From Bacteroidota bacterium (GTDB taxonomy: Bacteria > Bacteroidota > Ignavibacteria > Ignavibacteriales > Ignavibacteriaceae), in contig JAKAJV010000108.1 of assembly GCA_021813585.1 (NCBI GenBank), positions 1 to 32,901 of the forward strand: a stretch of DNA of 32,901 nucleotides, read 5' to 3'. This document shows positions 2,707-32,242 of this stretch, in pieces (within the stretch, counting starts at the first letter, position 1; each line of letters begins with the position of its first letter). The notes beneath the pieces are model-generated. The model ran no database searches. It had not been told where the DNA came from and saw nothing but the letters and a program-made list of their open reading frames with translations. Position numbers and translations under genes: made by a program.

Positions 2707-3300
2707 TTACTTTAAAAAATTCTTGAGCCAAATAGGCGTGGCAAATGAATAAGAGATGCCGCCGGACAATAAAAACAGCTCTATTCTTTTATGAGTAAAC
2801 ACAGCCGCATAGTCTACGGCAACAAATAACATAAAATTGTGTATTATATATAAACTCATTCTTGAGCTAACCCCTGCCGATAGTTGAAGCTTATGATGCT
2901 GCTCGTCTGACAAGCTGTCTCCGTCAAAAGTCATTTCGAAAGCGCCAACTTTAAAACCGTTGTACCATTCTAGGCTAACCGGAAGATTCAATTTTTGGCC
3001 CCAGCCGGCAAAATAAAATGCGGCATTTATATTATGATGTATATTCCCTTTAGCTCTATAAGGTAAAAAGCGGATTCCCCCGACGATTGTACCGTAATAA
3101 AAAGGCATTTCAACACTAGCCTCAAAACCAGGTTTTGCATTCCACAAACGGTTTAGCTCATCCGTACTTTTATTTATTACAATATTTATGTTCAAACGGG
3201 TAATAGAAAATACATCTGTTTTACTTTGGGCAATAATATATGAGCTAAAAAGTATGGGAAATAAAAAGATAAATTTTCCGAATTCCGTTTTCATTTGCAT
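2707..3300 (-). CDS. Small secreted or outer-membrane beta-barrel-like protein, unknown function
   Basis: The 197-residue product starts with a clear signal peptide (hydrophobic core FIFLFPILFSSYIIAQ). The rest alternates short amphipathic strands with aromatic residues, such as TIVGGIRFLPY, AAFYFAGWG and LFLLSGGISYSFA. This suggests a small outer-membrane barrel, but no family is recognised. It is convergent to the TonB receptor, with about 160 bases between the stop codons, and shows no operon partner. ATG at 3300 is used; a second in-frame ATG lies two codons later. Function is unknown. Confidence 0.7.
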   Translation of the reverse strand: MQMKTEFGKFIFLFPILFSSYIIAQSKTDVFSITRLNINIVINKSTDELNRLWNAKPGFEASVEMPFYYGTIVGGIRFLPYRAKGNIHHNINAAFYFAGWGQKLNLPVSLEWYNGFKVGAFEMTFDGDSLSDEQHHKLQLSAGVSSRMSLYIIHNFMLFVAVDYAAVFTHKRIELFLLSGGISYSFATPIWLKNFLK

Positions 3301-3535
3301 TTAGACTTTTTTTGACTTTAACAAAACTAAAGCTTTACATACACCAACAACATGCCACAAACCACAATTATTCCAAAATAGTCCGACGATACTGGCTGCG
3401 TGAATCTGCTAATAATTAAACTGGTTAAATTGTAAACAGTTAAAAAGTTTAGTACATGTTATTTTTTGTCGATAATAGAAATCTATTTTATAATTCACAC
3501 AGTGATTTTATGCTAATAACAATTTTTAATTTTAT
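3301..3535. other. Intergenic stretch without recognised genes
   Basis: Apart from the candidate promoter near its start, this AT-rich stretch between the small barrel gene and the inverted-repeat element shows no coding frame, hairpin or family motif that I recognise. Confidence 0.5.
3322..3350 (-). promoter_or_regulatory. Possible Bacteroidota-like promoter for the 2707-3300 gene
   Basis: On the minus strand TAGTTTTG (3322-3329) fits the Bacteroidetes -7 consensus TAnnTTTG. A TTG triplet (3348-3350) lies 18 bases upstream, roughly where the -33 element should be. The start codon follows about 20 bases later. Whether this lineage uses the Bacteroidetes-type sigma factor is not shown, so this is only a candidate. 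Confidence 0.25.
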
Positions 3536-3798
3536 GGGCACTTGTAAAAACTATTTTTTAAAAGAATAGAACACGCGGATGAAACGGACCTGCCTCTACC
3601 TGTAGGTAGAGCGTGTTGCAGAACTGTAAAATTGGGATGTCACGGACCATTCCGTGACATAAAAAACTCACAATTCAGTCATGGTTTGGACCATGACTGC
3701 TATGCACTAGAGTTGCGCAACAGGCTCGGTAGACAGGTGCGGCAGGCAGGTTGAGCGGATTAAGACGGATTAGTTTTGAAATTTTTAGAAGTGCCCAT
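3535..3798. repeat. 264-bp miniature element with terminal inverted repeats and three internal hairpins
   Basis: The left end reads ATGGGCACTTGTAAAAA and the right end is the complement of ATGGGCACTTCTAAAAA, giving terminal inverted repeats of about 17 bp with one mismatch. Inside are three independent perfect hairpins: CTCTACC/GGTAGAG (about 3594-3611), ATGTCACGGA/TCCGTGACAT (about 3637-3661) and CAGTCATGGT/ACCATGACTG (about 3676-3699). There is no coding capacity, so it resembles a non-autonomous element. A further copy of the end sequence stands alone at 5322-5336. Confidence 0.6.
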
Positions 3799-3854
3799 AA
3801 TACAATTTTGGAAAGGCGGAACAGCTTACCTTAAAGTCTGACTAAATATTTTTA

Positions 3855-3945
3855 TTGACATAAGCAATGATTATTTATAACTTATAAGTGCCGAAAGGGA
3901 TAATTTGGGGCTCTGATCGAGAAGTTCCCTTATTTTGTTTTGAGC
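3855..3945 (+). ncRNA. Candidate small RNA or isolated promoter plus terminator-like hairpin
   Basis: TTGACA (3855-3860) and TATAAC (3876-3881) resemble a sigma-70 promoter, but with a short 15-base spacer. About 14 bases after the -10 box comes AAGGGA (3895-3900), pairing with TCCCTT (3926-3931) around an inner CTC/GAG stem, then a T-rich run (ATTTTGTTTT). A transcript of about 60 bases with its own terminator would fit. No family is recognised and the call rests only on the order of these signals. Confidence 0.2.
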
Positions 3946-4160
3946 GCGTTAAATAAATAAGTTTTAGGGCTGAGGCTTATATATGTACGAAGATTCGGAA
4001 CAGAGAAAAGCTGTTATACTTCAAATCTTTCTAATAAGAAATAATATAATTAATTTAAAAGAATAAAAATATCAAAGCGTCGGCTTTTGCTGTTAGAGTA
4101 TTTTAAAGTGCAGCTCAAGTTTAGTAAGCGGCAAAGAAATTTTTCCTGTTTTACACTCTT

Positions 4161-4400
4161 TGCTTTAGAATAGCAGATAAAATTTTACGCATGTACAGCG
4201 CAAGTTTAAGAGCTGGCAGTCAAAATTTACACACTGACAATGCAATTTTAGACGCCGGCAGCCGGAATTTTAATAGCGGCGGCCTTATTTTGATACAGGG
4301 CAGCCAAATTTTGCCTTCTGGCAGCGCATTTTTAATAAGGTACGACAAAATTTTATACTATGGCGACGCAATTTTTAGGATGGAAGACGCTTTTTTACTC
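4161..4400. repeat. Degenerate 21-bp tandem repeat, about 10-11 units, with phased A/T tracts
   Basis: An AATTTT-like tract recurs every 21 bases at about 4182, 4203, 4224, 4245, 4266, 4287, 4308, 4329, 4350, 4371 and 4392, alternating with GC-rich cores such as GGCAGC. Weaker A/T tracts at a similar spacing continue upstream to about 4084. One frame is open across it (ATG at 4191, stop ending at 4499). It would give heptapeptides such as ILDAGSR, ILIQGSQ, ILPSGSA and ILYYGDA. That frame has no Shine-Dalgarno. Because 21 bp is two helical turns, phased A/T tracts could bend DNA ahead of the gene at 4502. I favour a DNA-level role, but a repeat protein is not excluded. Confidence 0.65.
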
Positions 4401-4433
4401 CAAAACATTATATATTTGAATAAAAACGCAACA

Positions 4434-4499
4434 ATGACAAAAAGGAGATCATTTAATCACAATTTAATTCAAATAACTTTTAACAAACTAAGGAGTTAA
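4434..4499 (+). other. Possible 21-residue leader peptide ahead of the 4502 gene
   Basis: ATG at 4434 opens a short basic peptide (MTKRRSFNHN...) whose stop codon ends two bases before the start codon at 4502. The AGGAG of the downstream gene lies inside its last codons. It is the end of the same frame that runs through the 21-bp repeats. Translation here could couple to the downstream gene. There is no independent evidence of expression. Confidence 0.2.
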
Positions 4500-4501
4500 C
4501 A

Positions 4502-5197
4502 ATGAATGCGGCAGTAAACTATAATATCCAGGACGCGAACGCGCTGGATGAAACCATCGGCAGAAATGAGGCTGCGCTTACGGAGAAGGGATTCCCTGCA
4601 GAAAACCGTACTGAGCTGAAGAACAGAATAATAATCCTTACAGAAAAGGAAAATACTTTAAACGGTAAAGCGAAAAAGCTTGAAGATTTAACTGCAGGGC
4701 AAAATGTAATTATAACCGAATCGCAAGGTTTAGCTTCCAAGGTACGTAATGCAGCAAGCAGCGCGTATGTAGGTAATGCCCGCGTTTTAAAACAATTTAA
4801 CGTAGGAATAAACAAACGTATTCCAAGAGCTATCAACTCACTTCGCGCAGAGTGCGAATATTTAATACCGCTGGTTACAGAGAAGAAAGCTGACTTATTA
4901 AAAGGCGGCTTGCAGGAAGCCGACGTTACTGCACTCGGCGAGGCGCCGGCAAAATTAATAACATCGGATAAGCAGCAGGAAGACGCGAAGAAGGAGAGGA
5001 ACCAGGCAACAGTTGAAAGAGAAGAAGCGGATAAGGAATTAAAAAGAATAAAGACGAAAATCCGGAAATTCGTACAAACCGCCTTTGCAGGCAACAAGGC
5101 AATGCTAGTACAATTCGAGCCGATACCTAAAGGTAGAGGCGGAGGTAAAGATGATGCAAGCGGAACTACTCCTCCACCTGCACCGCCGGTACAATAA
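4502..5197 (+). CDS. Internally duplicated helical (coiled-coil-like) protein with Pro/Gly-rich tail, unknown function
   Basis: The 231-residue product has no signal peptide or membrane segment. It is rich in Lys, Glu and Ala and is predicted by eye to be almost all helical. It contains two copies of a unit of about 100 residues. The clearest shared motif is K-x-R-x5-A-(Y/F)-x-G-N-x3-L-x-Q-F, at residues 80-99 and 186-205, exactly 106 residues apart. Each copy starts with a weaker L-x3-G-(F/L)-x5-T-x-L segment. The C-terminus (about 209-231) is a flexible Gly/Asp stretch ending in a proline cluster. The start is well supported by AAGGAG six bases before the ATG. No partner gene is adjacent, and the upstream DNA is the phased 21-bp repeat tract. 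I do not recognise the family; a cytoplasmic four-helix-bundle role is only a guess. Confidence 0.8.
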   Translation: MNAAVNYNIQDANALDETIGRNEAALTEKGFPAENRTELKNRIIILTEKENTLNGKAKKLEDLTAGQNVIITESQGLASKVRNAASSAYVGNARVLKQFNVGINKRIPRAINSLRAECEYLIPLVTEKKADLLKGGLQEADVTALGEAPAKLITSDKQQEDAKKERNQATVEREEADKELKRIKTKIRKFVQTAFAGNKAMLVQFEPIPKGRGGGKDDASGTTPPPAPPVQ

Positions 5198-5202
5198 TTA
5201 TT

Positions 5203-5245
5203 TGGTGGTTGGCTGTTGGAGGTTGGTGGTAGTTTGTTGTAGTGT
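5203..5245 (+). other. G/T-rich strand-asymmetric tract
   Basis: Just after the 4502 gene stop the plus strand is almost all G and T, with six or more GG pairs spaced by one to five bases. This could form a two-tetrad G-quadruplex in DNA or in the 3' end of the transcript. It lies directly before the terminator hairpin. Confidence 0.3.
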
Positions 5246-5246
5246 T

Positions 5247-5282
5247 AAAGGGATGGCATTATAAGGATGATGCCGTCCCTTT
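5247..5282 (+). terminator. Hairpin terminator of the 4502-5197 gene
   Basis: AAAGGGA-T-GGCAT pairs with ATGCC-G-TCCCTTT, with one central mismatch and a short loop. It is followed by A-rich rather than T-rich sequence. The symmetric flanks could act on either strand, but the nearest upstream gene is on the plus strand. Confidence 0.6.
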
Positions 5283-5321
5283 AAAATAACTTTTGTGAAT
5301 TTACTATAAAAATTATTTAAG

Positions 5322-5336
5322 GGCACTTCTAAAAAC
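5322..5336 (+). repeat. Solo copy of the 3535-3798 element end
   Basis: GGGCACTTCTAAAAA matches the terminal repeat of the 264-bp element exactly in its right-end form. No partner end in the opposite orientation is visible in the following few hundred bases. It is either a degraded copy or a remnant left by deletion. Confidence 0.5.
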
Positions 5337-5398
5337 TAACAATTAATTAATTGATTTGTTCTGCAAAATAATTTTTTCAAAAAAGACAACTTAAAAAC

Positions 5399-5417
5399 CC
5401 ACGTGCTCAGCACGTGG
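5399..5417. repeat. Perfect hairpin CCACGTGC/GCACGTGG
   Basis: Two 8-base arms separated by TCA form a strong perfect stem. It stands alone among other small repeats between the 4502 gene and the minus-strand PAP2 gene. It may be a member of a dispersed short palindromic family, or a terminator for either side. Confidence 0.5.
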
Positions 5418-5451
5418 TAATGTAATGATGGCTATGCCTAAACGAGCGAAT

Positions 5452-5630
5452 AGAAATCTCGGTGGCGAAGCCATGAATTCGGCCAAAAGAGGCTGACCAA
5501 AAAGTATCCATATGCGTCGGCTGAGCTTGTTGAAGCCAGCATTTTATTGCAAATACCGCATTTCGACAAGCTCAATGCTCGGTTTTATGTTCTTTTAGGT
5601 CAGCCTCATAATCGAATTCAAGAGATTTCT
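5452..5630. repeat. Nested inverted repeats forming a cruciform or long hairpin
   Basis: From outside to inside, AGAAATCTC (5452-5460) pairs with GAGATTTCT (5622-5630). GAATTC pairs with a second GAATTC. GAGGCTGACC (5489-5498) pairs with GGTCAGCCTC (5598-5607). TGAGCTTGT.GAA (5522-5534) pairs with TTC.ACAAGCTCA (5562-5574). A side hairpin (ATGGCT..GCC 5428-5438 with GGC..AGCCAT 5464-5474) straddles the left edge. The structure lies just after the stop codon of the minus-strand PAP2 gene, so it may shape or end that transcript, but it looks built from nested insertions. Confidence 0.6.
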
Positions 5631-5636
5631 TTACTT

Positions 5637-6563
5637 TTAGAATGTTACTAATAAATTCAAATGCATGTCGTTATTTCCTAAAGAAGGAAATACAGTAATA
5701 CTTGTAAAGCTTGCTTTATTCTTCTCGGAATTCTTTTCAATTCTGGGTGGGGCAATTATATTACCAAAGGTATATCCTAAAAAGTATGCAAGTGGTAAAT
5801 CACTATACCAATGCATCCCCTTGTTAATAAGAGAAAAGCCAAGTAACCCAAGAAGAGGATAGCCTATCGGTCTAATCCACTTTTGGTCTGGGTAGTTGTT
5901 AGCAATAACTGTTAGTACCGCAGTGGCTGTTGCTAAATGCCCAGATGGGAAAGAATAATATCGCGGTTGGTCTTTTTGATATTCTTTTATGCTCGGCATA
6001 AAAGCCCAATCTCCGCCTTTTTCAGACGAAGCAATTGGACTTTCCCTACCAGAAATTCTCTTGAGAATTTGTACAAATATTCCTGTAGCCAAAACTGCCT
6101 CTGAAATATTACTTCCCGTTTGAAGCGCAGTTTTATCATGTAAGATCAATCCAGCAGTAGCAAAAACAGCAGCGCTAATAAATTGATACGTGCCATTCCC
6201 AATATTCACAATAAAATTAGATGTTCTGTGATCCAAAGATGATTTTAGAAATAATTTTCGTTGTGCTGTCCATCCTTTTTGATCAACAAACATTAGAGAC
6301 CCCGTAAGCGCAGCAATTCCTAAATAAGTTTGCATCATTTTCTTATCTACGGTTCTCTTGAAAAAAGATATATAGTCTGAAGGGATATCCGTAATCATTT
6401 GATGCCATGTTATTTTTTCTTGGTGGTCAGTTTGCTGATTACATGTATCTACCTTTGAATTAGTGGAATCGTTTGGCATTAATTGATAAACTAAGGCAGC
6501 TGAAAAAGTACTTCTCCAGCATAAAAGCAAAATTATTAAAATGCCTGTTAAAGATTTAATCAT
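5637..6563 (-). CDS. PAP2-family phosphatase, secreted or membrane-anchored (first of two paralogues)
   Basis: The 308-residue protein carries an N-terminal signal or anchor (about 4-25) and a PAP2 acid-phosphatase domain in its second half. Motif 1 is K168-RISGRES-P176, motif 2 is PSGH (206-209), and motif 3 has H251 and D255 in GMHWYSD. The family removes phosphate from lipids such as undecaprenyl or phosphatidic acid phosphates, on the periplasmic side of a membrane. The second motif-1 arginine is Ser175 and the motif-3 arginine is Leu245, although the histidines and aspartate are kept. The neighbour at 6702-7733 has the same changes and is a diverged paralogue. The ATG directly abuts a 103-bp inverted-repeat element that supplies its upstream DNA, and no good Shine-Dalgarno is visible. 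Confidence 0.85.
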   Translation of the reverse strand: MIKSLTGILIILLLCWRSTFSAALVYQLMPNDSTNSKVDTCNQQTDHQEKITWHQMITDIPSDYISFFKRTVDKKMMQTYLGIAALTGSLMFVDQKGWTAQRKLFLKSSLDHRTSNFIVNIGNGTYQFISAAVFATAGLILHDKTALQTGSNISEAVLATGIFVQILKRISGRESPIASSEKGGDWAFMPSIKEYQKDQPRYYSFPSGHLATATAVLTVIANNYPDQKWIRPIGYPLLGLLGFSLINKGMHWYSDLPLAYFLGYTFGNIIAPPRIEKNSEKNKASFTSITVFPSLGNNDMHLNLLVTF

Positions 6564-20127: not shown

Positions 20128-21129
20128 ATGAATTCGAATTATAAAAAATATATTGCTGTAATTTTTCTTTTAACCGCATTGGTAAGCGGCTGTGCCAACG
20201 ATGCAAAAGAAACGCCCGAACCCCCTGTCGTAGTTCAAGTAAAAACCGGTTTGGTTCAAACCGGAACAGTTGATCAAACGGTTACTGCTACAGGTCAAAC
20301 TTCGGTTCAAAAATTATTTCAAATAAATTCGCCTTTAACCGGTGTTATAGTTAAGATGAAATATTTTAACGGCGATGTGATTAACAAAGGCGATGTAATT
20401 TGTTTGATAAGAACGAAAGAATCTCAAGCTGCAATTACCGGTGCCGAATTGCTGCTGCAAAATGCCGTTACACAACAGCAGAAAAACGAAGCTGAGCTGG
20501 CACTAAACTCCGCCAGAAAGAATTCTAACGAAGTAAAAATAATAGCGCCGTTTACAGGCATACTAACCAAGAAGATGAAGAACGAAGGCGAAGTTGTTGC
20601 CGAGGGTGATCAAATAGGCGCGCTGATAAACGACGCTTCAATTATTTTTATTGCAAATGTTCCCGCTTCATCAATTTCAAAAATTAAGAGGGGCGAGACT
20701 GTATATCTTAAATTTGCCTCGCAAGATGGGAAAGAATTTTCCGGAACTGTTAAGCGAATTGAACCCACGGTAAATGCGGATCAGACAATACCGGTGCAAA
20801 TTGAATTTAACGGCATGCATAAGATTTTTGAAGATGCGCTTTTCGGCGAAGCTTCTATTTTAACCGGTAGGCTTCCGAATCAATTAATTGTCCCGGTTAA
20901 AGCGGTACTTCATGATGATGAAAACAATACAAACTCGGTTTTTCTAATCAATCCGGATTCGATTGCGTATAGCGTTAATGTTAATGTAGTTCAGCGCGGC
21001 GATTCAACTGTGGCTGTTTCTTCGCCGCAGTTAAAAAAAGGAATGGCGGTTATTGTTGAAGGAAGTTACGGCTTGCCGGATTCAACAAAAGTTAATGCCA
21101 TACCTTCCGGCGTGCAGGTATCCAAATGA
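20128..21129 (+). CDS. Efflux RND periplasmic adaptor (membrane-fusion) lipoprotein
   Basis: The 333-residue protein starts with a lipoprotein signal (LVSGC, lipidated Cys22). It shows the adaptor order: lipoyl/barrel-sandwich half-motifs around a short helical hairpin (INSPLTGVIVKMKYFNGDVINKGD, cited as G-V-I-V-K and G-D-V-I, then APFTGILTKKMKNEGEVV), then a beta-barrel domain and a membrane-proximal domain. The coiled-coil hairpin is short. It links the inner-membrane pump to the TolC duct. Its stop codon overlaps the pump start (ATGA), showing tight coupling. Confidence 0.9.
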   Translation: MNSNYKKYIAVIFLLTALVSGCANDAKETPEPPVVVQVKTGLVQTGTVDQTVTATGQTSVQKLFQINSPLTGVIVKMKYFNGDVINKGDVICLIRTKESQAAITGAELLLQNAVTQQQKNEAELALNSARKNSNEVKIIAPFTGILTKKMKNEGEVVAEGDQIGALINDASIIFIANVPASSISKIKRGETVYLKFASQDGKEFSGTVKRIEPTVNADQTIPVQIEFNGMHKIFEDALFGEASILTGRLPNQLIVPVKAVLHDDENNTNSVFLINPDSIAYSVNVNVVQRGDSTVAVSSPQLKKGMAVIVEGSYGLPDSTKVNAIPSGVQVSK

Positions 21130-24100
21130 ATATATTCTTATTTGCAGAACGTCACGCTAAAGCGATAATCTTCGGCATCGCACTATTATTCCTTGCCGGA
21201 ATTTATGCCTCGATAAATTTGCCGGTTGCAATTTTCCCCAACATCGATTTTCCGAGAATAGTTGTTCTGGTTGATAACGGCGAGCAGCCTGCTCAGCAAG
21301 TTATGATTACATTGACCAAGCCGCTTGAAGAAGCCATACGCGCAGTTCCCGGCGTTCGCGATGTTCGCTCCACTACCGCAAGAGGCTCTGCAGAAATATC
21401 AATTAACTTTGATTGGGGCACAGATGTAATTCAAGCACAGCAGCTTTTGCTTGCGCAAATATCATCAGTAAGAAATCAACTTCCTTCAACTGCGAATATC
21501 GTAGTGGAAAGAATGAACGCCACTTTCTTTCCGATAATGGGATATGAAATTACGTCCGATACTCACAGCCAGGTTGAGTTAAAAGATTTAGCGCTTTATA
21601 CTATTCGTCCTATTCTAAGCAGAATAAAAGGAATCTCGCAGGTTGTTGTTGTCGGCGGAAGGACAAGAGAATTTTTAGTAACGGTAAATCCGTTAAAGTT
21701 AGCTTCCTATCATTTAAGCATTAAGCAGGTTTCAGATGCAATCGGAAATACAAATATAGTCAGCTCCGTCGGATACATGGATGAGAATTATCATCTCTAT
21801 CTTACGCTTGTTGACGACATGTATAAAACGATTGACGATATAGACAGCACGGTAATTGCCACACAAAATTCAACGCCTATTTATCTTCGGGATGTTGCTA
21901 ATGTAACCCCGTCTCTTAAGGATGAGTACATTAGAGTTACCGGAAACGGCAAGCCCGCAGTGCTGATAAATATTGTAAGGCAGCCGGACGGCAACACCGT
22001 GCAAATTGCCAAGGATGTAAAGGCTGCGCTGAACAATTTGAAATCTCAAATCCCTTCCGGAATTACCATTAGAAATTATTATGATCAGTCAGAGCTTGTT
22101 ATGGGTTCTTTTGGAAGCGTTAGGGACAGTATCGGCATCGGGGTGCTGTTCGCAATTATTGTGCTTCTAATCTTCCTAAGAAATTGGCGCGTTACCTTTG
22201 TCGCGGCCGTAATAATTCCCGCAACCGTGTCGATTACAGCAGCGCTGCTGATGGTAACAAACCAAACGCTTAACATGATGACGCTCGGCGGAATAGCCGC
22301 GGCAATAGGACTGATAATTGACGACACGATTGTTATCATCGAAAATGTTTTCCGGCATTTCGGGCACGGGCACGAAAAAATATCGCATGCAATTTCAGCA
22401 TCGATTAAAGAAATGCTTCCTGCTGTTATCGGTTCAAGCTCGAGCACAATAATTATTTTTCTTCCGTTCGCTTTCTTAGGCGGAGTAACCGGCGCATTCT
22501 TTAAATCACTTTCGTTAACGATGGCGCTGGCTTTAATTGTTTCTCTTGTACTCTCATTAATTTTCGCGCCGATGCTGGCTTCCAAAATAATTCGTGTAAA
22601 AGATTTTCAGAAAGAGGCTAAAAGCGAAAGCTCGGGCAGAATACTTTTGCTTTATAAGAAATTCCTCCGCTTTCTTGTTGAAAGAAGATGGATTGTTCTG
22701 CCGATTATTCTTATTCTGCTTGCATCCGGCTATTACATCTACTTGCATCTAGGCAGCGAGTTTATGCCGAAGATGGATGAAGGCGCTTTTGTAATGGATT
22801 ATGTTGCGCCGTTCGGAACTTCGCTTAATGAAACAAACCGGATGCTGATGCATGTTGAAAAAATTATTATGAGCATTCCGGAAGTTGAAACGTATTCCAG
22901 GAGAACCGGAACTCAAATGGGGTTTTTTATTACAGAACCTAACACCGGCGATTATCTGATAAAGCTGAAAAACAATCGAACCAAAAGCATTGATGAGGTA
23001 ATAAATGAGCTTCGCCAAAAAGTAGAAACCTCTGAGCCTGCCTTGCAGATTGATTTTGGACAGGCGATGCAGGACCTAATCGGCGATCTTACCAGTGTGC
23101 CTTCGCCCATTGAAATAAAAGTATTCGGCGAGAACAAAGAGATAATGCAGGCTGAAGCAAAAAAAATCGCTAATCTTATAAGTCGTGTCCGCGGCGTTGT
23201 GGATGTTTTTAACGGCATAACAATAAGCGGACCGGCATATATTATTAAGGTTAATCAAGAAGCTGCCGGCAGGGCGGGGTTTACGGTTTCCCAATTACAG
23301 CAGATTATTTATAACTATGTTCATGGAGAAATTCCTACAAGCGTTCAAAGCGGAGAAAAATTAATCGGCATAAGAATTAGATATCCTGATGAATACCGGG
23401 ATAATATCGATAAGCTGAAAACAATTCGAATCGTTTCCCCCAACGGCGGCAGCTATATGTTAGGCTCATTGGCAAATATTTCCGTTGATCCCGGCCAATC
23501 GGAAATTGATAGAGAGAATCTTAAACAGATGGTAGCCGTTACCGCAAGAATTTCCGGTAGAGATTTAGGCAGTACAATCGGTGCTATTAAAAATGAATTA
23601 AATAAAAATTTAGTTTTGCCTCAAGGGGTCTCAATTAGCTACGGCGGAATATATAAAACACAGCAGGAATCTTTTTACGGACTTTTGATGGTTCTGTTAG
23701 CCGCTTCGCTGCTGGTTATTCTTGTGCTTGTAATTGAGTTTGAATCTTTCTTCCTCCCGCTTGCAATTTATCTTGTCGCACTGCTTTCACTGTTCGGCGT
23801 GTTCCTGGCTTTGTGGATTACGAACATTTCATTCAATATTACCAGCTTTATGGGCGCAATTATGATGGTTGGCATTGTTGCAGAGAACAGCATCTTTCTT
23901 GTCCATTACTTCTTGCAATTTCAAAAGCAGGGAATGCCGTTGAAGGAAGCGATTGTTGAAGCTGGTGCGGTAAGGTTTCGCCCGATTATAATGACGGCGC
24001 TCGCCGCAATATTGGCCCTTATGCCTCTGGCACTTGGAATCGGCGCCGGTGCGCAGATGCAGCAGCCGCTTGCCATAGCGGTTATCGGCGGATTTTCGTT

Positions 24101-24158
24101 ATCAAGCCTGCTCTTACTTTTTATCCTTCCGGTGTTAATTGCGAAGTATAAAAAATAA
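21126..24158 (+). CDS. RND efflux transporter, inner-membrane permease
   Basis: The 1010-residue protein has the full RND repeat: two groups of six membrane helices and two large periplasmic loops. The fourth-helix proton-relay motif is GLIIDDTIVIIENV with Asp399 and Asp400, as in hydrophobe/amphiphile exporters, rather than the single-Asp heavy-metal type. The C-terminus reads GAQMQQPLAIAVIGG then LLLLFILPVLIAKYKK. It would trade protons for substrate, in a complex with the adaptor and TolC protein. Substrate cannot be named. Its 3' end recurs in degraded form at 24201-24329 and 24988-25029. Confidence 0.95.
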   Translation: MNIFLFAERHAKAIIFGIALLFLAGIYASINLPVAIFPNIDFPRIVVLVDNGEQPAQQVMITLTKPLEEAIRAVPGVRDVRSTTARGSAEISINFDWGTDVIQAQQLLLAQISSVRNQLPSTANIVVERMNATFFPIMGYEITSDTHSQVELKDLALYTIRPILSRIKGISQVVVVGGRTREFLVTVNPLKLASYHLSIKQVSDAIGNTNIVSSVGYMDENYHLYLTLVDDMYKTIDDIDSTVIATQNSTPIYLRDVANVTPSLKDEYIRVTGNGKPAVLINIVRQPDGNTVQIAKDVKAALNNLKSQIPSGITIRNYYDQSELVMGSFGSVRDSIGIGVLFAIIVLLIFLRNWRVTFVAAVIIPATVSITAALLMVTNQTLNMMTLGGIAAAIGLIIDDTIVIIENVFRHFGHGHEKISHAISASIKEMLPAVIGSSSSTIIIFLPFAFLGGVTGAFFKSLSLTMALALIVSLVLSLIFAPMLASKIIRVKDFQKEAKSESSGRILLLYKKFLRFLVERRWIVLPIILILLASGYYIYLHLGSEFMPKMDEGAFVMDYVAPFGTSLNETNRMLMHVEKIIMSIPEVETYSRRTGTQMGFFITEPNTGDYLIKLKNNRTKSIDEVINELRQKVETSEPALQIDFGQAMQDLIGDLTSVPSPIEIKVFGENKEIMQAEAKKIANLISRVRGVVDVFNGITISGPAYIIKVNQEAAGRAGFTVSQLQQIIYNYVHGEIPTSVQSGEKLIGIRIRYPDEYRDNIDKLKTIRIVSPNGGSYMLGSLANISVDPGQSEIDRENLKQMVAVTARISGRDLGSTIGAIKNELNKNLVLPQGVSISYGGIYKTQQESFYGLLMVLLAASLLVILVLVIEFESFFLPLAIYLVALLSLFGVFLALWITNISFNITSFMGAIMMVGIVAENSIFLVHYFLQFQKQGMPLKEAIVEAGAVRFRPIIMTALAAILALMPLALGIGAGAQMQQPLAIAVIGGFSLSSLLLLFILPVLIAKYKK

Positions 24159-24777: not shown

Positions 24778-24987
24778 ATTTTTTCCGGTAGAATATAAAA
24801 TTATTGTTCTCTATATAATGCGATCTTCTTTAATAGAAAAATAGCAAATACTTTTTATGGAAACAATGTATAGCGCATTTGTATATTTATCTTATACCAA
24901 GCTTAGTCTGAAGAATGTAACTGCGCTTAATGCAAGCATTGCGTTTATGCATGTTATAGCAGCTATCAATATGATTTCATTACCCAG
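24778..24987. other. Intergenic remnant between antitoxin and RND tail copy
   Basis: AT-rich sequence with no convincing gene. An open frame (ATG at 24857) runs through it and into the following repeats but has no Shine-Dalgarno and a composition unlike a real protein, so I do not call it. The antitoxin promoter should lie at its left end. Confidence 0.4.
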
Positions 24988-25029
24988 CTTACTTTTTATT
25001 CTTCCGGTGTTAATTGCGAAGTATAAAAA
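24988..25029 (+). repeat. 42-bp copy of the RND pump 3' end
   Basis: This stretch matches 24113-24154 at 41 of 42 bases (counted by eye; C versus T at the twelfth position) and would encode LLFILPVLIAKYK. Such high identity points to a recent duplication of the last bases of the pump gene. The flanking sequence does not continue the match on either side. Confidence 0.75.
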
Positions 25030-25094
25030 TTTTCACAAGAAATGGTTTTCCTGTGCACTCAATTGCCGTACTAGCAAAGTTTTAAGCAGTTTAA

Positions 25095-25136
25095 TCCGCC
25101 TTCTCCCGATGAATCGGGTTACGGCGGACGAGAAGG
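25095..25136. repeat. Nested small inverted repeats after the helicase gene
   Basis: TCCGCC (25095-25100) pairs with GGCGGA (25123-25128) around a perfect inner hairpin CCCGAT/ATCGGG, and CCTTCTC (25099-25105) can pair instead with GAGAAGG (25130-25136), so the two stems compete. The element lies downstream of the helicase stop codon on the minus strand and could form part of its terminator. It looks like a dispersed palindromic repeat. Confidence 0.45.
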
Positions 25137-25193
25137 TTGGATTTAATTCCCCGTCGCTTACTGAGGTACAGGGTTTGGGGTTTGCCACGAGGT

Positions 25194-26924
25194 TCATACC
25201 ATTGATTTCTTGCCGGCTTTAGATTTTTTCCTTTTCATGCCGCCCGATTTCTTATTCTTTTTATTGCTGGACTTAGTAGCCTGCCGTTTCCTTTTTTTCT
25301 GATTGCCGCTGCCGCGCTTATTATCGGCAACCTCTACCGCAACTTGCCGGTTCTTATATTTTTTATTTATAAAAGATTGAAGCACGGTTTCGGTATAATC
25401 GCTGTCGGTTTCAAAAAAGGAAAAATTATTTAGTATTTCAATATCGCCTATCTCAATATTTCTTATGCTGGTGTAATCGTTAATCATTCCGATAAGAGTT
25501 GCCGGCTTTAGGTTGTCTATTCTGCCTAGGTTAATAAAAAAACGTGTAAACCCGGAAGATTCTGAGTGCCCTTTGCCTGATGACCTGCCGTCGACAGGCT
25601 GATTTAAATCTTTTGATTCTTTATAATATTCAATGAACCTGTTGAATTCCGCCGAAACGAATTTCTTTATCAGCTCTTCGCGATCAAGCCATTCAAGCTT
25701 TTTATAAATTTCGGGCAGGAACGAATCAATCTCTTCATCGTTCACCTCAACTTTTTCTATTTTATCAATCAGATGAAAAAGCTGCTTTTTACATATATCC
25801 TTTCCCGAAGGAACAGGAAGTAGTTTGATAGTTTTGTTAATCTGTTTTTCTATCTGCTGGAGCCTATACTTTTCTTTCAGATTGGAAATTATTATTGAAG
25901 TTCCGTGTCTGCCTGCTCGACCGGTTCGCCCGCTCCGGTGAGTATACAAATAAATTTCATCAGGGAGATTGTAATTAATAATATGAGTTAGGTTGTCTAC
26001 GTCAAGGCCGCGTGCGGCAACATCCGTTGCCACAAGCAGCTGAATATTCTTTAGCCTGAACTTGTTCATCACGGTATCCCTCTGTACCTGGGATAGGTCG
26101 CCGTACAGCGCATCGGCATTATAACCGTCCTTAAGCAGCTTATCTGCAACCTCCTGTGTTTCTCTCCTAGTGCGGCAGAATATTATTCCGTAAATATCAG
26201 GGTAAAAATCGGCAATCCGCTTTAGTGCCAGATATCTATCCTTTTCATGCACCATAAAGCAGACATGCTCAATATTTTCAGCGCCGGAATTACGCTTGCC
26301 GATTGTTATTTCAACCGGATCGTTCAAATACTTATCTGCAATGGAAAGAAGTTCTTTAGGCATTGTAGCTGAGAACAGCAGAGTGTTTTTATCTTTCGGC
26401 GTTTTATCAAGAATCGATTTTAGCTCTTCTCTAAAGCCCATATTCAGCATCTCATCTGCTTCATCAAGAACAACTGTCTTAACCGATGACAAATCAACCA
26501 CTCGTCTTTCAATTAAGTCGATCAGACGCCCGGGTGTTGCCGAAACAATTTGCGCGCCTTTCTTAATTGCCTTTATCTGCATATCAATGCTGGCGCCGCC
26601 AAATACCGCTGCAATTTTTATTTCGCTTTTATATTTGGAATAACCCTGAAGATCATTTGTAATCTGCAGACACAATTCCCTGGTAGGAGAAAGAATTAAG
26701 TACTGAATATGCTTTACGTGTGTATCAGTCTTTTGAATTAGCGGCAGCCCGAATGCCGCAGTTTTTCCCGTGCCGGTTTGTGCCAAGGCTAGTATATCCG
26801 GCCGGTCTTCTTTCATTAAATACGGAATTACTTGTTCCTGTATAGGCATAGGCTTTTCAAATCCCGATTCCTCAATTGCCTTTACTATAACGGCCTCTAT
26901 ACCAATTCCTTCAAATGATGACAT
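25194..26924 (-). CDS. DEAD-box RNA helicase with DbpA-like RNA-binding domain and basic tail
   Basis: The 576-residue protein carries all DEAD-box motifs: the Q motif near 28 (PMPIQEQ), AQTGTGKT (48-55), PTREL, DEAD (154-157), SAT (185-187), and HRSGRTGRAGR (329-339). After the helicase core come a DbpA-type RNA-binding domain (about 455-535, FTRFFINLGRIDNL) and a very basic Lys/Arg/Ser-rich tail (about 540-576). It unwinds RNA duplexes, probably in ribosome assembly or cold adaptation. The start has AGGA eight bases before the ATG. It is a single minus-strand gene. Confidence 0.95.
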   Translation of the reverse strand: MSSFEGIGIEAVIVKAIEESGFEKPMPIQEQVIPYLMKEDRPDILALAQTGTGKTAAFGLPLIQKTDTHVKHIQYLILSPTRELCLQITNDLQGYSKYKSEIKIAAVFGGASIDMQIKAIKKGAQIVSATPGRLIDLIERRVVDLSSVKTVVLDEADEMLNMGFREELKSILDKTPKDKNTLLFSATMPKELLSIADKYLNDPVEITIGKRNSGAENIEHVCFMVHEKDRYLALKRIADFYPDIYGIIFCRTRRETQEVADKLLKDGYNADALYGDLSQVQRDTVMNKFRLKNIQLLVATDVAARGLDVDNLTHIINYNLPDEIYLYTHRSGRTGRAGRHGTSIIISNLKEKYRLQQIEKQINKTIKLLPVPSGKDICKKQLFHLIDKIEKVEVNDEEIDSFLPEIYKKLEWLDREELIKKFVSAEFNRFIEYYKESKDLNQPVDGRSSGKGHSESSGFTRFFINLGRIDNLKPATLIGMINDYTSIRNIEIGDIEILNNFSFFETDSDYTETVLQSFINKKYKNRQVAVEVADNKRGSGNQKKRKRQATKSSNKKNKKSGGMKRKKSKAGKKSMV

Positions 26925-27439: not shown

Positions 27440-30400
27440 TTAGCTGCATCCGGAAGTGGCCCCGCAAGTCATACACTTTAAGCATGTACCGTTCCTTACC
27501 ATAGTCATACTCTGGCATTCGGTGCAGATATCGCCGGTGTAGCCCTTCTCGATCGCCTGTCTTACCTTCGTCTGCATAGATGCTTTCTGCTGGTTTACAG
27601 GCTGATGATACTTGGCTTCGTTGGAAGAGAGCGAGTAATTGTATGAGCTTGCTTTCTCTTTATCTAGCTCTACTACGCGTGTGCTCACTACTTCCTCGCT
27701 TACATATTCCGGTTCAATAAACTTCTTTACTATTCCGGGGGAGACCTTTGATTTTGATTCGTCCGGCTCAACGTGTGCAAGGTCGTTTCTTCCCAGGTAT
27801 GTTACGGCAAGCTCCCTGAAAATATAATCGATAACCGAAGTTGCCATCTTTATTTTATCGTTGCCCGATACAATACCGCTCGGCTCAAACCGAGTAAATA
27901 CAAATGCATCTACAAATTCTTCAAGCGGAACCCCGTGCTGCAGCCCCAACGAAATTGAGATTGCGAAACAGTTCAGCAGGCTTCTAAAGGCGGCGCCCTC
28001 GCGGTGCATATCTATAAATATTTCGCCAAGCTGTCCGTTCTCATACTCGCCGGTTCTTATATAAACGGACTGTCCGTTTATCTTTGCCTTTTGAGTGTAG
28101 CCGGTTCTTCTATCCGGCAGCCTTCTCCTTTTAGCTATGTACCTGTGGATAATCTTTTCGGCAATCTTAATTATATCGTTATGCTCTTTGTCCTCAATTA
28201 TCGCCTCAAGCTCTTCTTCCGTAATGGAATTTAGCGGCTGCGATAATTTGGAGCCGTCCCTGTAAAGCGCGTTTGCCTTAACGCCGAGCCTCCATGAGTC
28301 CATGTATGCATCCTTAATGTCCTGGATGGAAGCGTTATTCGGTAAGTTAATAGTTTTGGATATAGCGCCCGAGATGAACGGCTGCGCCGCGCCCATCATC
28401 TTTATATGTGCAACGGGGCGAATGAACCTTGTGCCCTTTTTGCCGCATTTGTTTGCGCAGTCAAATACCGGGTAATGTTCATGCTTTAAAAACGGCGCAC
28501 CTTCAATCGTCATAGTCCCGCATACATAGTCGTTCGCGGATGCAATCTCCTGCTTCGAGAAGCCGAGAGCAGTTAATAAATTAAAATCGAATGAGTTGAT
28601 TTGCTCTTCGCCCATGCCCAATTTATTTATCAGGAAATCCTCGCCGATTGTATACTTGTTGAACGCGAAGCTTAAATCGAAAACAGAAGGCAGCGATTTT
28701 TCTATCTTGGAAATAATTGAATCGCTGAAGCCTTTGGCCTTTAACGATTCCGGATTTATATAAGGGCAGCCGTTAAGAGTGCCGGAGCCTTTGGCGTACT
28801 TTACTATCTCGTTAGTCTGGTCTTTATTATAACCTAATCTTTCCAGTGCCGGCGGAATGGATTGATTTATTATTTTAAAGTATCCGCCTCCGGCCAATTT
28901 TTTGAATTTGACTAAAGCGTAATCCGGCTCAACCCCGGTTGTATCGCAGTCCATTACAAGTCCTATCGTTCCTGTAGGCGCTATAACCGTTACCTGCGCA
29001 TTTCTAAAACCGAACTCGGTACCCATCTCAAGCGCCCTGTCTGCATCTTCCCTTGCGGCTTTCAGCAGATCGGAGGGACAGAATTTCGGGTCTATACCTA
29101 CCGGGAAGATTGACAGTCTTTCATATTCCTCGTGAGGTACATTGTAAGCGGCGCGCCTGTGGTTCCTTATAACGCGCAGCATATGCTCTTTGTTCTTTTC
29201 GTATTTAGAAAACGTGCCGAGCTCTTTTGCCATTTCCGCGGACGTAGCGTAGGCGGTCATATGCATAACGGCAGTAACTGCGCCGCATATTGCAAAGGCT
29301 TCGTTGCTGTCGTAAGGAATTCCCTGCTGCATTAGTAACGAGCCCAGGTTAGCGTAGCCCAGGCCGAGCGTTCTGAAATCGTAGCTTAGTTGAGCGATTT
29401 CCTTGCTGGGGAACTGTGCCATCAAAACGCTTATCTCCAGGACGATCGTCCATAATCTTGTAGTATGCCTGTAAGCTTCGATATTGAATTTCTGTTTCTT
29501 AGAGTCGTAATATTTTACAACGTTTATGGAAGCCAGGTTGCATGCAGTATCGTCAAGGAACATATATTCGCTGCACGGATTTGAAGCCTTAATTTCTCCG
29601 TCTTCAGGGCAGGTATGCCATTCGTTTATTGTTGTATGGTACTGTATCCCCGGGTCGGCGCTAGACCAGGCAGCATAAGAGATTTGATCCCAGAGGTCTC
29701 TAGCTCTCAATGTTTTAAAAGGCTTGGGATTTCGCTTCTCATCTTTTGCTCTTTTCTTCTCAACTCTTCCGTAAAGGTTCCAGTCGCCGTCATTAATTAC
29801 GGCATTCATATATTCGTTTGTTACTCTTATAGAGTTATTTGAATTCTGCCCGGCCACGGTTGCATAAGCGTCCGAATTATAATCGGTATCGTATTCGGGA
29901 AATTCAATTGATTTAAAACCAAGCTTTGCAAGCTGAATAACCCTTTCAATATAGTTATTCGGAATTTGAGCTTTCCTTGCCTCAATTACTGCATGTTTCA
30001 ATTTGGCGTTCAACGACTTATTGAACCTGTCGTTTTCCGGGTGCTCATCGTAGCATGCCTGCATAATGGCATTTAAATGATAGTTGCATAATTTAGAGCC
30101 GGCAACCAGTGAAGCCACCTTTTGCTCTTCAACTACTTTCCAGTTTATGTATTCTTCGATATCCGGATGGTCGAGATCGAGGGTTACCATTTTTGCCGCT
30201 CTTCTTGTAGTGCCGCCGGATTTAATGGCGCCTGCGGAGCGGTCGCCGATCTTTAGGAAAGACATTAAGCCGGAGGACTTGCCGCCGCCGCTCAGTGTTT
30301 CATTTGCACCTCTAATTTCCGAAAAGTTGGAACCTGTTCCCGATCCGTATTTAAACAATCTGGCTTCGCGCACCCACAGGTCCATTATTCCGCCTTCGTT

Positions 30401-32242
30401 CACAAGATCGTCTTTAACCGACTGGATGAAACAGTTATGGACGACTACGCCGTTGGCTAAAAATTTCCCGGATTCGGTCTGTATATCGTATACTTCTTCT
30501 CTGCCAATATAATCTATAGAAACTATAGTCTCTTCGGAAAGATCATTCTTCTTCTTCCCTTGTATTTCTTGATTAAGCAATCCTAATTTTTTTATTTTAT
30601 CCTTGGAAATAAAACCAATCATATTTTCAAATTTTATTCTTTCCGAATGGAAAGCTATAATTACTTGATATGATGGCTTTCTGTTTTCTCTTGAGTCATT
30701 GCATAAAGATATGGATGAATATATCCCGAGGCTAAGCAAAAGGACCTGAACATCGTGAGCAAGCTGTTCTGAAATAGTTGTTAGAACGATATCTCCTGAA
30801 TTTCTTCCATTTGTATTTCTGATCCTTACCGAGCCGTCTGCCTGAAACAAGCTTTTAAGATATAGAGATTTTTCTTTTTCCGTACCTTTAAATATTTTTT
30901 CGGAAACATGGGCTGTATAGGAAGTAGAGTTTAATTCATACTGCTGTACAAATTCATCAACACGTTTTGAATCTAGCTTTACAATTCTATATAAACTATT
31001 AATATTTTTTCTTACAACAGTTTTATAACTTCCAAATATTGTCTGGAAAAGCGAGCTGACATAGGCATATTCGTCGTCATTTATAGTAATAGCTCCGAAC
31101 AAAGTTGTTTTGTTGTTCCTATTATACTTGCCGTAATATCCATCACCGGTAATCCATCCGGCTAAAGCAGCTTCAGCGTGATTATATTTAAGATGAGTGA
31201 AGTCATCATTTGGAACTAACTCTTCATATGTGTCTTCATTACCTAAAATTTTGAGAAAGTCTTTTTGCGTGTTCGCAACGTATACGGCTTCATTAACAGA
31301 TTTTTCAAGAATAGCAGCAATTTCTTTTTCAAAAAGTGCATCACTTTTTACGGTATACTGCTGTACCTTCAGCCCTAAAGTTTTCTTAAGCTCATTCCAT
31401 TCATAATTACCGCCATCTTTTAATCTTTTATCTGATGATAAAATCAAATGGTCGTCTGTAAATTCTATGTAATTTCCGTTTTTTAGTGTAGCTCTGTAAA
31501 TATCTTTAATGCCGTTATTCTTTACGGCTAATATTTTTACATACTCGCTTCCGTCATATATTTTCGCTTCCGTTAAATTATTATCTACAATTTCACCAAT
31601 CTGAAATATTCCATTTTCCGCAAAAAGGTAAGTATTTGCACGTGCACATGCATGCGGCTGCGGATGTGAATATGCATCGGTAGAGGCAGTAAGCTTACCG
31701 GTTGTGTAATCCACATAGTAGTGGCCTTGGGAGGGTCCGGTTATTCCGTAAGCCCAGTGCAGGCCCGTATTAAACCACTGCGGGCTGTTAGGCGCAGTCA
31801 TCTGGTTTGCAAGCATGTAAATCAATTCATCATAAAATGCCAATGCGTCATCTTCGGAATCGAAATATTTAGCCTGCCATCCCCAGTAAGTCCAGCAGCC
31901 TGCAAGCCTGTGGAAAACCTGGCGTGCGTCGGTTTCGGATGAGTACCTTTCCTTGGGAGTCAGTTGTTCAAGTCTTTCACTATCGGCAGTAGAAGGCTGA
32001 AGCCACGAAGGTATGCCTTTTTCAGGCACCTTCTTTAAAAGTTTTGGAACGCCGGCCTTCCTGAAATATTTTTGTGCAATTATATCGGTAGCAACCTGGG
32101 ACCAGCTTTCCGGCACCTGTACGTCCTCCATCCTGAACACTATCGATCCGTCCGGATTTTTTATTTCGGATGTGCGTTTAACAAAATCAAATGACGAAAG
32201 AGGATCTTTACCTGCCTCAGTAAAATATCTTTTTATTTGCAT
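27440..32242 (-). CDS. nrdJ: Class II (B12-dependent) ribonucleotide reductase with intein
   Basis: The 1600-residue precursor loses a 405-residue intein (residues 199-603) to give an enzyme of 1195 residues that reduces ribonucleotides to deoxyribonucleotides, with adenosylcobalamin as the radical source. Extein motifs include SHPQPHA before the intein and CFIQS after it, NPCSE (888-892) with the thiyl-radical Cys890, Cys901 eleven residues later, and APTGTIG. The C-terminal zinc-ribbon-like tail has paired cysteines (CTEC, CLKCMTC, SGCS) that should regenerate the active-site disulphide. Cys604, the first extein residue after the intein, matches the redox-active partner cysteine, so splicing is needed for function. 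GGGAG precedes the ATG by about eight bases. No B12 riboswitch or clear NrdR box was seen upstream. Confidence 0.95.
30434..31648 (-). other. 405-residue LAGLIDADG intein inside the reductase
   Basis: Precursor residues 199-603. It begins with Cys ([14 protein letters not shown]) and ends with VVHN, followed by Cys604 as the +1 nucleophile. Block B is [13 protein letters not shown] with Thr262 and His265. The homing-endonuclease motifs are [12 protein letters not shown] (about 360-371) and [11 protein letters not shown] (about 462-472), both keeping the Asp that binds metal. Block F/G is [21 protein letters not shown], cited by its ends. All splicing residues that I can place are intact, and the two endonuclease acidic residues are kept, so both splicing and homing may be active. 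The base composition is clearly more AT-rich than the flanking exteins. Confidence 0.93.

Follow-up and report, generated by a model that had tools for sequence, protein, structure and literature searches.

A 21-bp-phased repeat array beside the gene of a small helical protein points to an undescribed kind of bacterial locus

Iteron and parC-like arrays adjoin the gene of their binding protein, as at plasmid rep and par loci, and the length of iterons varies between systems. Promoters curved by phased A-tracts are also known. A terminator between the repeats and the gene has been used to recognize ToxIN (PMC8860590), and TIGR arrays are reported to consist of repeats of 8-12 nt with 9-nt spacers (PMC12045711). 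Among openly licensed papers, judged by title and the start of the abstract, nothing matched 21-bp arrays in bacteria.

The DNA analyzed here, referred to as the window, comprises 32,901 nucleotides of a Bacteroidota bacterium of the Ignavibacteriaceae (GCA_021813585.1, contig JAKAJV010000108.1, positions 1-32,901, forward strand). A preliminary description had noted phased A/T tracts directly upstream of a gene starting at 4502 and had proposed that they bend DNA or, alternatively, encode a short repeat protein; its observation was confirmed and its interpretation partly supported. The array is real. In the 600 bp 5' of the 4502 gene, self-identity at lag 21 lay 6.0 sd above that of dinucleotide shuffles, and the three top lags of the autocorrelation were 42, 21, and 63. 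Lags 21, 42, and 63 combined gave z = 13.5, with 21 the best among all lags of 12-60. The ten or so units first reported correspond to ten rows that are strong by eye (4187-4396), and further in-phase rows run from about 4103 to 4417. The 21-bp register, which had been called exact, held throughout except for one 22-bp step near the upstream end of the fitted chain. The reported ribosome-binding site is visible as AAGGAG just before the ATG at 4502. Tandem Repeats Finder (minimum score 30) did not report the array because its units are too divergent. The array was the sole match at z > 9 in the window and 20 further stretches of the same genome (372,599 bp, lags 12-45). In 100 stretches of this genome outside the window (1,702,581 bp), 12 periodic regions and one run of N were found at z > 8; one of the 12 had lag 21 (L185:8905) and lies within a 360-aa ORF with a heptapeptide repeat. 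The 1.74 Mb scanned, window included, held no intergenic 21-bp array other than that at 4103-4417; a paralogue array described below (L092) falls outside the 100 stretches. The features of the locus are listed in Table 1.

Table 1. Features of the array locus in the window (positions in the 32,901-nucleotide stretch).
Feature	Position	Strand	Basis
Discrete cassette (upstream block, array, gene, terminator)	3843..5321	+	blastn to L005 (G019), at an unrelated site
Block upstream of the array	3843..4051	+	Partly conserved with L006; putative promoter or leader
21-bp-period repeat array	4103..4417	+	Unit consensus about GGCAGCnnAATTTTAnnnnnn; A/T-tract columns constrained in comparison with L006
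Array-to-start-codon region with ribosome-binding site	4421..4501	+	78 of 80 aligned bases identical to L006
231-aa helical protein, remote PQLLE family relative	4502..5197	+	ORF; NF052641.1 match; alignment with 9 homologues
Terminator-like hairpin 3' of the gene	5245..5284	+	18-pair stem

As in iteron and parC-like systems, direct repeats in helical phase, about two turns apart, stand beside one gene at this locus, and the site sequence differs between systems. In contrast, the present loci are chromosomal cassettes, one period is common to the tested arrays of the family, unlike the variable lengths of iterons, and no replication, partition, or centromere-like protein family was recognized (Pfam, E up to 0.1; PDB sequences, E up to 1). 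The tracts of the window array are in helical phase and curved in prediction, like those of phased A-tract promoters, but curvature is not common to the family. Tandem repeats directly 5' of a single small gene are shared with type III toxin-antitoxin systems (ToxIN, CptIN); here, however, the unit is 21 bp in 10-26 copies, by a strict hairpin rule none of 30 loci had an intrinsic terminator separating the repeats from the gene, and neither a general fold signal nor a known toxin family was seen. TIGR-Tas, as described in PMC12045711, likewise combines a repeat array with a single gene and varies in unit sequence between loci, but the period here is 21 or 42 rather than 36, constant repeat pairs separated by random spacers are not clearly seen, although arrays other than the homogeneous ones do have variable columns, and no Nop domain was found (10 members, Pfam, E up to 0.1). 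Because type III toxin-antitoxin, TIGR-Tas, and iteron arrays each fail at least one tested defining feature, we regard the locus, with caution, as representing a new kind relative to the openly licensed papers with which it was compared.

The window protein is, by sequence, a remote relative of NCBIfam NF052641, the 'PQLLE family': it matched NF052641.1 with E 9.4e-8 and 32 bits, below the curated cut-off of 80 bits, and the model was matched weakly by all 10 aligned members (threshold E 0.1, best 1.1e-13). The model name carries no function and is absent from the openly licensed literature searched. The window protein had no Pfam match above the cut-off, and among other members DUF3048 gave isolated weak matches (two of 10, best 1.9e-5); no DNA-binding, initiator, or centromere-binding family was recognized among 10 members by Pfam at E up to 0.1. 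A search of PDB sequences with the profile of the window protein gave no relative (E up to 1). With PADLOC models (E up to 0.1), the window protein had no match and the best value was 0.0039, in one of 10 members, and 12 PHROGs families were each matched by a single member (best 6.6e-5), none of them by the window protein. No viral relatives were confirmed in IMG/VR using two peptide patterns, and phage and plasmid records held no relatives at E 0.01. An AlphaFold model of two sequences was helical and of low confidence (mean pLDDT 48.5), too weak to serve as the basis of a fold search. The pI of members ranges from 4.5 to 9.6, many being acidic. Relatives were present in seven of 80 genomes of the host family, 16 of 164 of the order, and, by search with the NCBIfam model, 11 of 296 genomes drawn from the phylum. 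The gene had been described as duplicated, which is borne out by one full-length paralogue in the same genome (L002, G000:C129:39089-39781; 76% amino acid identity); this copy has an in-frame TAG near codon 44 in an otherwise open frame, together with its own 21-bp array (L092). Some distant relatives (L051, L052, and L127) are about 390-409 aa long and carry apparent fibronectin-type domains at the C-terminus; L051 and L052 keep an array upstream.

The linkage of array and gene is general. The best lag of 12-60 was 21 or 42 in 37 of 45 loci measured, among which L031 and L043 are one gene. In 40 homologue neighborhoods (613,127 bp in total), 38 periodic arrays exceeded the threshold of z > 9: 27 had lag 21, seven had lag 42, and one each had lags 18, 36, 39, and 40. 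Thirty-two of the 34 arrays with period 21 or 42 adjoin the homologue, the distance never exceeding about 1.1 kb and the adjacency for two of L119-L121 resting on the 45-locus lag measurement. Hence 32 of the 40 neighborhoods, from several orders and at least two classes, have such an array beside the gene, as the preliminary description had supposed for the window. Of the other two arrays, L131:6973 does not look like an array, and L093:13357-13735 (G019:C113) is a lone 21-bp array without an adjacent family gene, about 5 kb from a family array on the same contig, and is possibly an orphan. Eight neighborhoods had no array at z > 9 (L096, L107, L114, L115, L117, L118, L119, and L127); the contig ends close upstream in L096 and L127, which cannot be judged, and the other six homologues have enough upstream sequence. 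Arrays lying away from the gene in relatives had been expected to speak against the bending idea; the cases are few, namely L116 and L069, with the array downstream of the gene (in L116 after its apparent terminator), and the lone array in L093.

Spacing, rather than sequence, is what these arrays conserve, in line with the preliminary description. A set of 31 arrays was analyzed, which omits L028, L029, L031, L033, L037, L040, L041, L042, L048, L050, L055, L057, L062, and L069 (L033, L040, L050, L055, L062, and L069 among them bear arrays). In this set, 425 of 469 scored steps were exactly 21, in a fit that slightly penalizes other steps, so that the free variation of spacing named earlier as a counter-sign was not seen; many of the remaining steps fell at array ends or in weak arrays. 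The period is held while units diverge: consensus units differ widely between loci, and what stays constant is neither composition nor an A-tract, since array G+C spans 25-67%. Homogeneous arrays (L012 and L007) have almost no variable columns, while others do have them.

Units were strongly alike in some related cassettes of different genomes (L035/L036; L022/L032, 60% identity, z 6.9; L030/L035, 36% identity, z 6.2). Among nine same-genome pairs with proteins less than 52% identical, six had unrelated units (z < 1) and three had z of 2.6-3.4. The units of L046 and L056, from one genome and with 70% protein identity, were unrelated, and z of 5-6 was obtained for L034/L053, L034/L064, and L023/L053 despite about 20% protein identity. 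Over all pairs, unit similarity correlated weakly with protein identity (Spearman 0.15). Linkage and descent alone could also make units follow the protein.

In two related pairs, the unit core and the flanks proved constrained, with the remaining columns drifting near neutrality. When the window was compared with L006, a relative of 90% identity, tract columns differed at 3 of 78 positions, other unit columns at 44 of 194, and fourfold sites of the gene at 24 of 88; the A/T tract is constrained here. Upstream (3901-4083), 151 of 180 aligned bases were identical; long stretches are unchanged up to 4051, beyond which the alignment is poor. Between L035 and L036, 14 of 120 unit-core columns (picked after the counts were seen), 48 of 132 other columns, and 18 of 81 fourfold sites differed. 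The 300 bp upstream of the array differed at 16 of 300 positions (284 identical) in this pair, and the sole indel in the array was exactly one 21-bp unit.

By sequence comparison, array, gene, and terminator form a discrete cassette that occurs at unrelated sites. The L005 copy in G019 matched the window cassette at 85.5% by blastn, and the other matches of L005 to the window were two dispersed repeats of about 150 bp. The left and right neighbors of the window locus best matched G019 contigs C67 and C142, whereas the G019 cassette is on C113. A hairpin similar to that of the window follows the gene in L002 and L005. Two segments of the window, 3537-3800 and 5298-5384, have ends reading GGGCACTT(C/G)TAAAAA; by eye, 3537-3800 is bounded by an inverted copy, and 5298-5384 adjoins the cassette on its right side and has counterparts in several related genomes.

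The neighbors of the cassettes include CRISPR-Cas genes. The G019 cassette on C113 lies beside cas1 and, by eye, cas9, and the paralogue in the window's own genome (L002) directly precedes cas3. We found 16 Cas1 loci in 15 of 24 family-bearing genomes, nine having none, and six of the 16 were less than 10 kb from a family gene (G000, G019, G016, G124, G106, and G248). Uniform placement, assuming 45 or 58 family loci, predicts 0.15-0.19 such loci (P = 1e-8 to 5e-8), a value that is indicative only, the sample being one of related genomes selected because they bear the family. Two of the six, G124 and G016, had no array above threshold, and the majority of cassettes are not near Cas1. In four of 88 hits (G018:C29, G021:C5, G021:C34, and G198:C4), a Y1 transposase match follows the gene at a distance of no more than about 0.5 kb, and a tyrosine recombinase adjoins the gene in L103. 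In G018:C29, an 18-bp-period array (L101:11089-11803), overlapped by an ORF with a PQPFTL-type repeat, follows the Y1 transposase gene downstream of the family gene. Elsewhere in the window, the translation of 27440-32242 resembles, by eye, a ribonucleotide-reductase-like protein with an apparent intein, and the middle of ORF 24857-25222 repeats the end of an efflux-pump-like gene at 21126-24158 (LFILPVLIAKYK), perhaps as the leftover of a partial duplication.

We tentatively favor the reading that the array is a DNA platform, phased at two helical turns, that serves the protein encoded in the same cassette. The locus would be a mobile or formerly mobile cassette made up of the upstream block, the phased array, the gene of the helical protein, and the terminator, and the array would work as DNA by presenting consecutive cognate sites at a spacing of exactly two helical turns. 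Molecules of the protein encoded by the cassette may load on one face of the DNA and touch one another, and we infer that the resulting nucleoprotein filament would control the gene and probably do the work of the locus, possibly in defense or in a mobile context. Spacing alone would then have to be kept everywhere; the site sequence would drift together with its own protein and would therefore differ between cassettes, even within one genome. That a period of exactly two turns persists while sequence and composition change is most consistent with a protein reading one face of the DNA at a constant pitch. A sequence-specific host factor common to all cassettes is unlikely, because one genome can contain different units, and the cassette's own protein is thus the natural candidate. 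Counting against the DNA platform are the lack of any recognized DNA-binding family together with the acidity of many members, the six arrayless homologues with enough upstream sequence, and the weak overall correlation of unit and protein with discordant pairs such as L046/L056.

The main rival to the DNA platform, which we consider unlikely, is that the array is transcribed and that a 21-nt repeat RNA is the active part, each repeat binding one protomer and the RNA serving as antitoxin or scaffold, much as in type III toxin-antitoxin systems. The order of parts, with a promoter-like conserved block, repeats, and a single gene, resembles toxI-toxN, and conserved blocks similarly placed to that of the window occur in L035/L036 and L021/L022/L032, making three lineages in all. 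Should these blocks be promoters, transcription would extend into the array, making a mechanism based on repeat RNA likely. A promoter-like motif, TTG-N17-23-TAnnTTTG, was found upstream of four of 31 arrays as against 1.1 expected, the one at the window locus falling outside the cassette. A slight purine excess of the sense strand of the arrays (0.53, p 0.007) hints at their transcription, and eight of 30 members have RG dipeptides near the C-terminus, within the last 50 residues. The signs of a structured RNA are few, however. Excess folding over column shuffles did not pass z -2 in 30 of 31 arrays, L053 being the exception (z -2.6 and -3.8), and a folded RNA in the array was rejected as a general feature. 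Rfam gave one chance-level match outside the array in window positions 3300-5700 (E 0.83) and none at E 0.1 in 14 loci; in the block upstream of the array, 120-nt fold windows gave mixed scores, taken as the lowest of up to 12 windows per locus and hence biased low. The repeat-RNA reading must also accommodate the missing array-gene terminators, the L116 array that comes after the apparent terminator of its gene, a fixed length of exactly 21 without an obvious RNA reason, and a window protein that PADLOC did not match.

Improbable, in our judgment, is a neutral minisatellite that rides with a mobile gene, its 21-bp unit inherited and amplified by slippage. The 42-bp periods of seven arrays, the one-unit difference in copy number between L035 and L036, and the near-fourfold rate at which most unit columns evolve agree with such an origin. 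Drift would not, however, be expected to leave the unit core constrained, to hold a spacing of 21 as units diverge, or to give the same period to unrelated unit sequences.

The curved promoter enhancer of the preliminary description, taken here to mean that any 21-bp repeat sums small bends, fits the predicted curvature of the window array but seems quite improbable as a general explanation. In a wedge model with column-permuted arrays as controls, the window array had a predicted curvature of 114 degrees per about 115 bp, and none of 100 permutations was as curved; L006 reached 141 degrees (0 of 100), and L052 (fraction 0.00) and L026 (0.01) were also extremely curved. Over all 31 arrays, in contrast, the mean was 56.6 degrees as against 51.3 in permuted arrays. 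The fraction of permutations that equaled or exceeded the curvature of the array had a median of 0.41, with four arrays below 0.1 and five above 0.9 in a flat distribution. Several arrays, including L032, L034, and L054, are predicted to be nearly straight, arrays reach 67% G+C, and some sit downstream of the gene. Curvature as a family-wide function was therefore rejected.

A guide array of an RNA-guided system, TIGR-like or CRISPR-like, is very unlikely. It would suit the closeness of six Cas1 loci to family genes and the 42-bp periods of some arrays, and the TIGR repeat and spacer lengths given in PMC12045711 could, by number alone, give half-units of up to 21; against it stand L012 and L007, with almost no variable columns to serve as spacers, and the 10 members without a Nop domain among their Pfam matches at E up to 0.1. 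A short heptapeptide repeat protein is hardly credible: the 102-aa ORF at 4191-4499 is open, as had been noted, and fully open sense frames were somewhat commoner in the 31 arrays than in column shuffles (17 as against 9.5), but single-base gaps shift the frame in L006, changes relative to L006 fell at 10, 22, and 15 first, second, and third codon positions so that second positions change most, 16 of the 31 arrays have no open sense frame, and sense stops numbered 561 as against 569.3 expected, so that heptad coding was rejected for the family.

Returning to the phased DNA platform, a sequence left free while spacing is fixed at two helical turns across several bacterial orders is rare evidence of selection on DNA phase. 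The phase-locked array comes with one small partner gene, in a locus compact enough for laboratory testing, and the unexpected closeness to Cas1 makes a role in defense or in mobile elements worth asking about. The family of small helical proteins beside period-locked repeats points to an undescribed kind of genetic locus. Tentatively, it may be a class of helix-locked 'satellite' arrays in which the period and not the sequence is conserved, each with a dedicated helical protein, spread as a small cassette repeatedly beside CRISPR-Cas and transposase genes, and it may serve genome defense or mobility as a nucleoprotein (or RNA-protein) system complete in itself.
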